Origin: Anianabacter salinae
GTDB lineage: Bacteria; Pseudomonadota; Alphaproteobacteria; Rhodobacterales; Rhodobacteraceae
Direction of reading: 5' to 3'
DNA length: 64,000 nt
Assembly: GCF_019061145.1 (NCBI RefSeq)
Contig: NZ_JAHQZS010000001.1
Coordinates: 868,001 to 932,000 of the forward strand
Shown here: positions 40,475 through 43,886 of the stretch, piece by piece
How the letters are laid out: each line of letters opens with the position of its first letter
How positions within the stretch are numbered: position 1 is the stretch's first letter
Made by a program: the position numbers and the translations under genes
Notes under the pieces: generated by a model
Databases searched by the model: none
What the model saw: only the letters and a program-made list of their open reading frames with translations
Told to the model about the DNA's origin: nothing

Positions 40475-40630
40475 GGGCGGGGTCCTTTCGGGCGTTCGGG
40501 GCAGGCGGGACGCTAGCCTGAGTCGGGGGGCGTGCCCAAGCCGCGGGTCTATTGTGGCGGGATTGCGGCAGGCAAGTGTTGCGGATCGGTCATCCCGGGC
40601 GGCGAATGGACGCTTGCAGGCGTTCTAGCC

Positions 40631-40674
40631 CGAAAACGCCAAATGCCCCGCCGATTTCGTCGCAAACGCCATAT
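40631..40674 (+). promoter_or_regulatory. Direct repeat upstream of mttB-family gene
   Basis: CGAAAACGCCAAAT (40631-40644) and CGCAAACGCCATAT (40661-40674) match at 12 of 14 positions and start 30 bp apart, three helical turns. They lie 50-93 nt before the mttB-family start and may bind a regulator. No regulator gene adjoins. Confidence 0.4.
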
Positions 40675-40723
40675 CGGCACCGCTCGCCTGCTGGTCTTCT
40701 GGGATAAACCAAAGGGGGCCGGG

Positions 40724-42280
40724 ATGGTCGACACGCTTACCAGAAAGCGCCGCTCGGGCGGACGGGCGGGCCACGCCAGCCGCAGCGGCAGCGCCGCGAT
40801 CGAGCAGATGCCCTGGCGGGTGCCGGTCAACACCGATCGCCCGACCGAACCGCTGACGGCCGAAGGCGTCGCGGCGCTCCATGACGGGGCCATGCGTATT
40901 CTCGAAGACATCGGCATCGAGTTCCTGAACGAGGAAAGCCTGGGATTGTTCCGGCAGGCGGGGTGCACCGTGTCGGGCACCAACGTCCGCATGGGCCGCG
41001 ATTTCGTGATGGAGATGGTCGCCCGCGCGCCCGCGCAGTTCGACATCACCCCGCGGAACCCGGACCGGCGGATCACGATGGGCGCCGGGCACATGCTCTT
41101 CGGCAACGTCTCGTCGCCGCCGAACTACTGGGACCTGACCACCGGCAAGATCACCGGAACCCGTGAAACCTGCGCGAACCTGCTCAAGCTGACGCAGTAT
41201 TTCAATTGCATCCACTTCGCGGGCGGCTACCCGGTCGAGCCGTTGGACATCCACCCGAGGGAACGCCACCTCGACGTGCTGTTCGACAAGCTGTCGCTGA
41301 CGGACAAGGTCGCGCACGCCTATTCGCTGGGCCCCGAGCGGGTCGAGGACGTGATGGAGATGGTGCGCATCGCGGGCGGGCTGTCGCATGAGGACTTCGA
41401 CGCCGCCCCGCGGATGTACACCAACATCAACTCTACCTCGCCTCTCAAGCACGACATCCCGATGATCGACGGCTGCCTGCGGCTGATCCGGCGTGGCCAG
41501 CCCGTGATCGTGACGCCTTTCACGCTGGCGGGGGCGATGGCGCCGGTGACGATGGCGGGCGCCGTAGCGCTGTCGCTGGCCGAGGCGCTGTCGGCGATTG
41601 CTCTGTTCCAGTATGTCGCCCCGGGCGTTGGCTGTGTGCTGGGCACGTTCACGTCGAACGTCGACATGAAATCGGGGGCGCCCGCGTTCGGCACGCCGGA
41701 ATACATGCGCGCCACGCAGATGACCGGCCAGATGGCGCGGTTCTACGGTCTGCCCCTGCGCTCGTCCGGCGTCTGCGCCGCGAACGTGCCGGACGGTCAG
41801 GCGATGTGGGAGACCAGCAATTCGCTTTGGGCCGCCGTGCAGTCGGGCACCAACATGGTCTATCACGCCGCCGGCTGGCTGGAGGGCGGGCTGATCGCCA
41901 GCCCCGAGAAGTTCGTGATGGACTGCGAGGTGATCCAGATGATCCAGCGCTATTTCGATCCCGCGCTCACCGCCACCACGCCCGACGACATCGCGCTGGA
42001 CGCCATCCGCGAGGTCGGGGCGAACGGCCACTATTTCGGCTGTCAGCACACACAGGAACGCTACACCACCGCCTTCTACCAGCCCTTCGTGTCCGACTGG
42101 CGCAACTACGAGGCCTGGGCGCTGGGCGGATCGGTCTGGACGGCCGAGCGGGCCCACCGCACCTACCAGGACATCCTTGCCAGCTATGAGCCGCCGCCGA
42201 TGGACATCGCCATCCGCGAGGAACTGGCCGATTTCGTGGCCCGGCGAAAGGCCGAAGGCGGCGCGCCGACAGATTTCTGA
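40724..42280 (+). CDS. Trimethylamine methyltransferase (MttB) family protein
   Basis: This 518-residue protein belongs to the MttB superfamily (COG5598). Conserved pieces include LHDGAMRILEDIGIEFLNEE, LFGNVSSPPNYWDLTTGKIT (split), PAFGTPEYMRATQMTGQMAR and AVQSGTNMVYHAAGWLEGGL. There is no in-frame amber codon, so this is a non-pyrrolysine member; such members demethylate quaternary amines such as glycine betaine or carnitine with a corrinoid protein. No corrinoid-binding or activase gene is adjacent, but the window's two B12 gene sets show the cell can make cobalamin. Start 40724 (MVDTLTRKRRSGGRAGHA). Confidence 0.87.
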   Translation: MVDTLTRKRRSGGRAGHASRSGSAAIEQMPWRVPVNTDRPTEPLTAEGVAALHDGAMRILEDIGIEFLNEESLGLFRQAGCTVSGTNVRMGRDFVMEMVARAPAQFDITPRNPDRRITMGAGHMLFGNVSSPPNYWDLTTGKITGTRETCANLLKLTQYFNCIHFAGGYPVEPLDIHPRERHLDVLFDKLSLTDKVAHAYSLGPERVEDVMEMVRIAGGLSHEDFDAAPRMYTNINSTSPLKHDIPMIDGCLRLIRRGQPVIVTPFTLAGAMAPVTMAGAVALSLAEALSAIALFQYVAPGVGCVLGTFTSNVDMKSGAPAFGTPEYMRATQMTGQMARFYGLPLRSSGVCAANVPDGQAMWETSNSLWAAVQSGTNMVYHAAGWLEGGLIASPEKFVMDCEVIQMIQRYFDPALTATTPDDIALDAIREVGANGHYFGCQHTQERYTTAFYQPFVSDWRNYEAWALGGSVWTAERAHRTYQDILASYEPPPMDIAIREELADFVARRKAEGGAPTDF

Positions 42281-42342
42281 CCCCGTTTGCGGTTTGTTAA
42301 ACCCGCCCGCGCTAGCGTTCCCAAGTCTTGCGGAGCGCGCCC

Positions 42343-42924
42343 ATGCACGGCCTTGTCAACCGGTCCATCCAGTCCTTCCTGACCCGCACGCGCGGGCGGT
42401 CCGTCTGGGCCGCCATCGCCGAGACCGCCGGTCTGGACGAGGACGGTTTCGACATCCTCGAAGTCTACGACGACGCGGTGACATGGGTCATGCTCGACGC
42501 CGCCGCCGCACGTCTGGGGCTGCCGCGCGACATGCTGATCGAGGATGTGGGCACCTTCATCGTCGCCCATCCCGAGCTTGGCGCACTACGCCGTCTCTTG
42601 CGCTATGGCGGGCCGACCTATCCCGATTTCCTGCATGCGCTTGCAGGCTTGCCGGACCGCGCGCGGCTGGCGGTGGCGACATTGGAGCTGCCGGTGATCG
42701 ACGTGGCCGAAGAAGCGCCTTCGCGCTTTCGGCTGACGCTGACTGGCGGCCCGGACGGGGCGGGGCCCTTTTTCCTGGGCATCCTGCGGGCGATGGCCGA
42801 TGAATACGGGGTGCTTGCGATCGTGTCTCTGGATCAACGCGGCGACCGCGCCACGCTGACCGTCGATATCGCCGATCTGGACTTTGCCGACGCGCGCGCC
42901 TTTGCGATGGGGGCTGCGCAATGA
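42343..42924 (+). CDS. H-NOX-like protein lacking the usual heme ligand
   Basis: This 193-residue protein matches the H-NOX/HNOB fold: MHGLVNRSIQSFLTRTRG at the N terminus, IEDVGTFIVAHPELGALRRL, and FLHALAGLPDRARLA. Hand alignment puts P104 where sGC and Tt H-NOX have the proximal heme histidine (in DEVH or DALH), and the YxSxR propionate motif is missing (the region reads RLTLTGGPDGAG). H98, six residues earlier, is a possible alternative. It overlaps the diguanylate cyclase by ATGA (42921-42924), so it is likely a sensor for that enzyme. Whether it binds heme is unresolved. Confidence 0.8.
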   Translation: MHGLVNRSIQSFLTRTRGRSVWAAIAETAGLDEDGFDILEVYDDAVTWVMLDAAAARLGLPRDMLIEDVGTFIVAHPELGALRRLLRYGGPTYPDFLHALAGLPDRARLAVATLELPVIDVAEEAPSRFRLTLTGGPDGAGPFFLGILRAMADEYGVLAIVSLDQRGDRATLTVDIADLDFADARAFAMGAAQ

Positions 42925-43886
42925 CCGTGGCGCTGGGCCACGCCCCGGCGGTGCTTACCCAAGACGCGCTGGATGCGCTGATGCCGATGCACCTGCGCCT
43001 GTCGCGCGACGGTCGGGTGCGCGCGATGGGGCCGACGCTGGCCCGGCTCTGCGGCGGCTTGACTGGGCAGACCTTGTCCGCTGCCGCCGATGTCCGCCGC
43101 CCGTTCGCGCGCGATATCCTTGCCGCGACCGCGCCGGTCCCGGTGTCGCTGGTGCTGCGGGCCTTGCCGGACTGTGCCCTGACCGGGATCGCGGTGCCGC
43201 TGGGCGACGGGATCCTGATCGACCTGTCGGCAGGGATCGGCACGCTTGATCTGATCCGGCGGCACGGGATGACTGCCGCCGACCTTGCGCCGACGAACCT
43301 TGGCCTCGATCTGGCCTATCTGCGCGAGGCGAACGATGCGGTGCAGGCCGAACTGATGCGCGTGACCCGCAAGACCCGCGCCGCCCGCGAAACCGCCGAG
43401 GAACAGGCCGTCACCGACACCCTGACCGGGCTGCGCAACCGCCGTGCGCTGGACGCGGTGCTGAAGCGGCTGGTTCGGGGCAACACGCCATTCGCGCTCG
43501 CCCACCTTGATCTCGACTGGTTCAAGGCCGTCAACGACACCCACGGCCACGCGGCGGGCGACCATGTGCTGCGCTCGGTCGCGCGCATTCTTCTGGATGA
43601 GACGCGGGCGGGCGATACCGTCGCCCGGATCGGCGGCGACGAATTCGTTCTGGTGTTCCCCGGCCTTGTCGATCCCGAACCCCTGCGCGGGATCGGAGGC
43701 CGCATCCTTGCCCGGATCGAGGCGCCGATCGCGTTCGAGGGGGCCGCGTGCCGGGTATCGGCCAGCATCGGCATCGCCGTCAGCGGCGGCGCCGATCCCG
43801 ACCGCGCCGGTGATCTTCTGGCCGAGGCGGACCGCGCGCTCTATGCCTCCAAGGAGGCAGGGCGCGGGCGGATCAGCTTTGCCTGA
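42921..43886 (+). CDS. Diguanylate cyclase with HNOBA-like N terminus
   Basis: This 321-residue protein makes c-di-GMP from two GTP. The C-terminal GGDEF domain (about 165-320) has the intact active site GGDEF at 238-242 and an I-site RAGD at 229-232 for product inhibition. The N-terminal ~150 residues (LRLSRDGRVRAMGPTLARL) resemble the H-NOX-associated PAS-like domain, and a helix at 130-160 links the two. It is co-translated with the H-NOX-like gene, so the pair probably turns a gas or redox cue into c-di-GMP signalling. Confidence 0.92.
   Translation: MTVALGHAPAVLTQDALDALMPMHLRLSRDGRVRAMGPTLARLCGGLTGQTLSAAADVRRPFARDILAATAPVPVSLVLRALPDCALTGIAVPLGDGILIDLSAGIGTLDLIRRHGMTAADLAPTNLGLDLAYLREANDAVQAELMRVTRKTRAARETAEEQAVTDTLTGLRNRRALDAVLKRLVRGNTPFALAHLDLDWFKAVNDTHGHAAGDHVLRSVARILLDETRAGDTVARIGGDEFVLVFPGLVDPEPLRGIGGRILARIEAPIAFEGAACRVSASIGIAVSGGADPDRAGDLLAEADRALYASKEAGRGRISFA

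Follow-up and report, generated by a model that had tools for sequence, protein, structure and literature searches.

An overlapping gene pair of Anianabacter salinae, a member of the Rhodobacteraceae, raises the question of what an H-NOX protein does for a diguanylate cyclase once the residues that hold its heme are gone. The pair lies in a window of 64,000 nucleotides, the whole stretch of DNA that was analysed, and its features are collected in Table 1. An earlier note on this DNA had described the H-NOX-like gene as sharing ATGA with the gene of a catalytically intact GGDEF enzyme; this description stands, both the GGDEF and the RxxD motifs being intact. The genome, which is 95% complete, contains one HNOB gene and three GGDEF matches.

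Table 1. Features of the hnox-cyclase locus, with positions counted from the first nucleotide of the window
Feature	Position	Strand	Basis or remark
TTTG-N7-TTAA element, CtrA-box-like	42286..42300	+	upstream of hnox; family-wide enrichment
hnox, H-NOX-like protein without proximal His, 193 aa	42343..42924	+	ATG start; HNOB 7.1e-19
H98, suggested substitute ligand	42634..42636	+	unsupported: His also in 10/14 relatives with proximal His
P104 (CCG) in column of heme-ligating His	42652..42654	+	phmmer and MAFFT alignments
Residues 133-137 (L,T,G,G,P), YxSxR relict	42739..42753	+	alignment with Nostoc and family H-NOX
Diguanylate cyclase gene, 321 aa	42921..43886	+	GGDEF 1.9e-36; start overlaps hnox stop as ATGA
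HNOBA/PAS-like N-terminal region of cyclase, about residues 13-115	42957..43265	+	family-level HNOBA match; strand-helix pattern of model
Long signalling helix of cyclase, residues 127-163	43299..43409	+	AlphaFold model
I-site RxxD (R229-D232)	43605..43616	+	R and D each in 221/223 cyclases
GGDEF catalytic motif	43632..43646	+	kept in 222/223 cyclases

The first protein was found to be related to H-NOX along its whole length, as the earlier note had also claimed. The HNOB profile of Pfam covers residues 2-155 (7.1e-19, 68.7 bits against a cut-off of 25.5) and is matched by all 63 rows of our H-NOX alignment, the window protein among them, while the closest PDB sequence, Nostoc Alr2278, aligns with residues 1-157 (phmmer, about 1e-16). 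An AlphaFold model built on the 63-row alignment has a pLDDT of 91.3, and structure comparison gave Z values of up to 21.1 against human sGC beta1 and of 19.6-20.5 against Nostoc H-NOX (for entry 2o09, Z 20.5 and rmsd 2.3 over 176 residues). Because of this profile match, the confidence of the model and its Z values to sGC beta1 and Nostoc, both sequence and model identify the protein as a full-length H-NOX and not a chance resemblance. Its start falls at the canonical Met, with the first helix of the model spanning residues 3-17, and an alternative TTG start would add five residues only. The Z values against NO-activated sGC beta1 (21.1, 20.8 and 20.3) exceed those against its inactive or unliganded state (19.6 and 19.1) by a small gap with no control model beside it, which is only a hint that the modelled protein may be nearer to the activated form.

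The canonical features of a heme sensor, the proximal His and the YxSxR motif, are both absent from the alignment row of the window protein. In the Nostoc numbering we take His105 to be the proximal heme ligand and YxSxR to occupy 134, 136 and 138. The proximal His of Alr2278 pairs with P104 when phmmer is run against the PDB sequences, and the same column was obtained from a MAFFT alignment with 31 canonical H-NOX of the family and Nostoc, in which Y134, S136 and R138 correspond to L133, G135 and P137. The alignment against characterised H-NOX proteins and Rhodobacteraceae homologues that the earlier note had proposed therefore upholds what it had said of the ligand position, where it had placed P104, and of the propionate motif, which reads LTLTGGPDG. 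PMC8196705 gives both His105 and YxSxR for sGC beta.

Proteins of this type are widespread in the family. The HNOB profile finds a match in 295 of the 394 Rhodobacteraceae genomes and a profile made for the window type in 286, at least two of which are canonical (L003 in G004 and L002 in G293). A draw at the level of the order gave matches in 239 of 292 genomes, every genome listed belonging to the same family. Two kinds of H-NOX were present among the sequences read: the window type, and the canonical kind that has both His and YxSxR. Our set of relatives comprises 265 loci scoring above 100 bits to the window-type profile, of which 234 are distinct, and removal of the canonical L002 leaves 233; these are unevenly sampled, as 80 loci were drawn from the highest-ranking hits of a single scan in which 551 were confirmed, and low scorers are under-represented. 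At 256 of 259 loci (plasmid loci excluded), hnox has a GGDEF gene no more than 2.5 kb away on its own strand, and the three loci that have none nearby (L201, L285 and L066) are all at contig ends. The two genes overlap by four bases in 153 of 223 pairs, a count inflated by choosing the start nearest that place. No C-terminal H-NOX-GGDEF fusion was found, no extracted relative being longer than 240 aa, although N-terminal fusions would be cut off by the choice of start. Window-type hnox genes also occur on plasmids in Paracoccus, Pseudorhodobacter and Phaeobacter (six records, of which five, L291-L295, were read), and at L293 and L295 a GGDEF gene is annotated beside hnox.

Among the 233 distinct relatives the ligand column holds Pro in 177, Ser in 17, His in 14, Arg in nine, Gln in five, Ala in four, Asn in three, and Asp, Gly, Lys and Thr in one each, and none of them has an intact Y-S-R triad. 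The canonical H-NOX of the family used for comparison, mostly top scorers of the HNOB profile search, have His in 31 of 31, with Ser and Arg each kept in all but one. The column most strongly linked with the presence of His is the former Ser of YxSxR. Trp or His stands there in 12 of the 14 relatives whose proximal His is retained (L034, L045, L054, L069, L194, L199, L221, L234, L239, L272, L280 and L286) compared with 19 of the 219 that lack it (Fisher 3e-10). This association fits a working heme site in the His-bearing relatives, where the Trp or His is perhaps an alternative way of holding the heme.

Could the window protein then hold heme by other means? Its only histidines are H2, H76 and H98, and it contains neither Cys nor Lys. 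The earlier note had offered H98 as an alternative ligand, and His is indeed found at this position in 163 of the 219 relatives without the proximal His. It is also found in 10 of the 14 that have retained it, however, and the P. denitrificans relative has Glu there. Residues 98 and 104 share one helix of the model (93-110) and are about 120 degrees apart on a helical wheel; being six residues off, H98 should point elsewhere. H98 was rejected as the replacement on this similar frequency and helix geometry, and we regard it as a most improbable ligand.

A wider alternative is that heme is still held, whether by H2 or H76 or with no ligand from the protein, and that NO is still sensed. H2 is present in 213 and H76 in 166 of the 219 His-less relatives, but both are about as frequent where the proximal His is kept (13 and 10 of the 14 respectively) and therefore do not compensate for its loss; comparison of His-bearing with His-less sequences revealed no compensating His column among the 233 relatives. 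The proline equivalent to P117 packs on the heme in canonical H-NOX, and P117 is invariant among the relatives, which would count against a heme-free protein. Against retention stand the loss of the propionate motif in all 233 relatives and the absence from the window protein of the Trp or His that accompanies the ligand, and we consider retention unlikely. Cys at position 133, the Tyr site of YxSxR, was observed in a fraction of 0.71 of the His-less relatives and 0.36 of the His-bearing ones; as a compensating residue it was set aside, because the window protein has L133.

The vacated pocket might alternatively bind another small molecule, in which case the protein would be a chemical sensor, free of heme, that acts on the synthesis of c-di-GMP. 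This is compatible with an H-NOX fold predicted at high confidence on a strongly conserved frame, with the diversification of the letters at the old YxSxR and with the precedent of drug-bound H-NOX domains (entry titles 4iae and 7d9t). At the level of sequence, no conserved signature of a single ligand was found and the YxSxR positions vary widely among relatives, so that we hold this reading to be quite unlikely.

We then placed the ligand column on a tree for 223 paired genes, which was computed with the ligand and Trp/His columns left out and includes 13 of the 14 His-bearing rows. The presence or absence of His changed at least 12 times on this tree, and with four outgroup rows added, a model in which the two sites depend on each other was preferred over an independent one (LR 20.9, p 3e-4). 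The stricter independent-pairs test of the link was not significant (five supported pairs, 2.9 in the same direction and 0.5 in the opposite one, median p 0.63). Once the tree was rooted, its outermost branches were those that lack His, and a history of losses only was disfavoured as it fits 3.8 log units worse than one of loss and re-gain; with several deep branches weakly supported, re-gain is no more than a possible direction. The Arg, Gln, Asn and Asp codons of the ligand column include one-step neighbours of His codons, and the 35 members of the clade of the window protein have only Pro, Arg and Gln there. Seven residues (E67, D68, R83, R84, R87, D153 and G156) are absent in Nostoc H-NOX and are kept in relatives with or without His; our guess is that they may form the docking surface for the cyclase.

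The partner is predicted to be an active diguanylate cyclase from its intact catalytic motif and I-site. Its model is ordered as a PAS-like sheet, the long helix and GGDEF. HNOBA matches the window cyclase itself under the curated cut-off (E 0.021, 14.7 bits against 23.4), and at E values up to 0.1 it is matched by 54 of 60 aligned cyclases, the window protein included, with 6.7e-13 as the best value. GGDEF chains dominate the fold comparison, in which the PAS part was barely probed, and entries of the PAS-GGDEF-EAL type, 5xgb for instance, can be aligned with residues 13-321 but at an rmsd near 24; the domain placement therefore differs. The absence of sGC from the resulting list carries no weight. 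Soluble guanylate cyclase follows the order H-NOX, HNOBA, helix and cyclase. Since this order is shared and HNOBA is matched by 54 of the 60 aligned cyclases, the pair resembles an sGC-like machine split in two, with GGDEF as its output.

The region ahead of hnox is also conserved. Of 231 relatives, 157 have TTAAC or GTTAA in the 150 bp ahead of the gene, as against a shuffle mean of 31.5 (maximum 42), and TTAA is found 36-80 bp ahead of the start in 206 of 231, with the two letters of a TT 11 bp before it at frequencies of 0.94 and 0.89. This TT-N9-TTAA pattern is sharply positioned, mostly 41-60 bp ahead of the hnox starts, and has the spacing of the CtrA box consensus used for comparison, so that the CtrA-box-like element of the window is a putative CtrA box. 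CtrA control is reported for D. shibae HNOX and for R. capsulatus rcc02629. A conserved upstream element, a coupled intact cyclase, an intact reading frame and 16 invariant columns in the 63-row alignment all oppose the view that hnox is decaying and functionless, for which the loss of all four compared heme-holding residues might be taken, and which we find hardly credible. Directly upstream of the locus lies a gene of the trimethylamine methyltransferase (MttB) family (40532-42280). A relative of it is near at least 116 of the 223 related hnox genes that have 1.4 kb or more upstream (many of these stretches being short) and is also present on a Phaeobacter plasmid. No match to a copper nitrite reductase was found in the Anianabacter salinae genome.

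The window pair is the orthologue of hnoX-dgcA of P. denitrificans and of hnox-dgc1 of D. shibae. Like the window, P. denitrificans (Pden_3719-Pden_3720) has overlapping H-NOX and GGDEF genes with the axial His missing, and the copy of strain HAMBI_2443 (L291, taken as the Pden gene), which is 36% identical to the window protein, likewise has Pro at the ligand position. Kumar and Spiro 2017 (PMC5588039) already state that the axial His is absent from the H-NOX neighbouring DgcA, as it is from the R. sphaeroides protein, and credit Iyer 2003 and Plate and Marletta 2013 for it; the novelty that the earlier note had expected is to this extent not borne out. According to that paper, hnoX has a biofilm phenotype: attached growth is partly impaired in the mutant and BapA is absent from it. 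The suggestion made there is that HnoX acts as an inhibitor of DgcA, the stimulus being NO. Their interpretation of the data, namely that NO acts through the His-less HnoX, counts against an NO-blind protein, and the NO effects together with the hnoX phenotype speak for continued NO sensing (PMC5588039). The N-terminal region of DgcA is described there as of unknown function, whereas here it is matched to HNOBA at the level of the family.

The D. shibae pair (Dshi_2815 and its neighbour) is of the same type, and its H-NOX, L272 of the DFL 12 genome, is inferred from map position to be Dshi_2815 and is 40% identical to the window protein. The primary paper on HNOX-Dgc1 is reportedly Bedrunka 2018. 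Unlike the window protein, D. shibae HNOX keeps the proximal His and has Trp at the old Ser. It is presented as a heme NO sensor which inhibits Dgc1 when NO is bound (PMC7232146, PMC8846402). The simplest joint reading of the D. shibae and P. denitrificans data would be that the His-less form restrains the cyclase without heme-NO.

Two other systems offer partial likenesses. The pseudo-H-NOX of sGC alpha is an H-NOX domain too, and according to PMC8196705 it binds no heme, the human alpha lacking the His and the moth alpha lacking YxSxR. In sGC alpha an N-terminal extension fills the pocket, whereas the window protein begins at the canonical Met and is a separate protein whose output is GGDEF. 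The H-NOX of V. cholerae is reported to work heme-free as a redox sensor (PMC7108781), but this needs a zinc site with cysteines, of which the window protein has none. As for a survey of His loss across the family, the link of His with Trp or His and the assignment of the partner to HNOBA, no such description was found in titles and abstract openings covering few subscription papers, which is weak evidence that these three are new.

On balance we think it probable that the pair is a split sGC-like machine, in which a heme-free and NO-blind pseudo-H-NOX docks on the cyclase at its input region, HNOBA(PAS) and helix, and restrains it. The heme-free sensor already envisaged in the earlier note is supported as the most likely reading by the loss of the proximal His and of YxSxR. 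The window H-NOX would no longer bind heme in the canonical manner and would therefore be blind to NO by that route. As a free-standing protein it would tune the c-di-GMP output through its docking, resting in a form like that released by NO, in which the His is untethered from the iron, and in this resting form it would hold the cyclase back as NO-bound HNOX is reported to do in D. shibae. Its input may be a different ligand that occupies the empty pocket, or no more than the amount of the protein.

H-NOX proteins are routinely annotated as heme sensors of NO, yet the proximal His is missing from 219 of the 233 relatives of the window type and YxSxR from all of them, so that in this family the name is no safe guide to a wiring from NO to c-di-GMP. 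Orthologues with and without the His that act on the same kind of cyclase provide a natural experiment between heme sensing and protein-protein control, and the family also bears on animal guanylate cyclase, whose pseudo-H-NOX is unexplained. More tentatively, what was a sensor of NO may have become, in this family, a regulator of c-di-GMP that mostly does without heme, its ligand being switched on and off repeatedly and possibly re-gained in a Trp/His background while the output surface stayed fixed. If this is true, most of its members would sense something other than NO.
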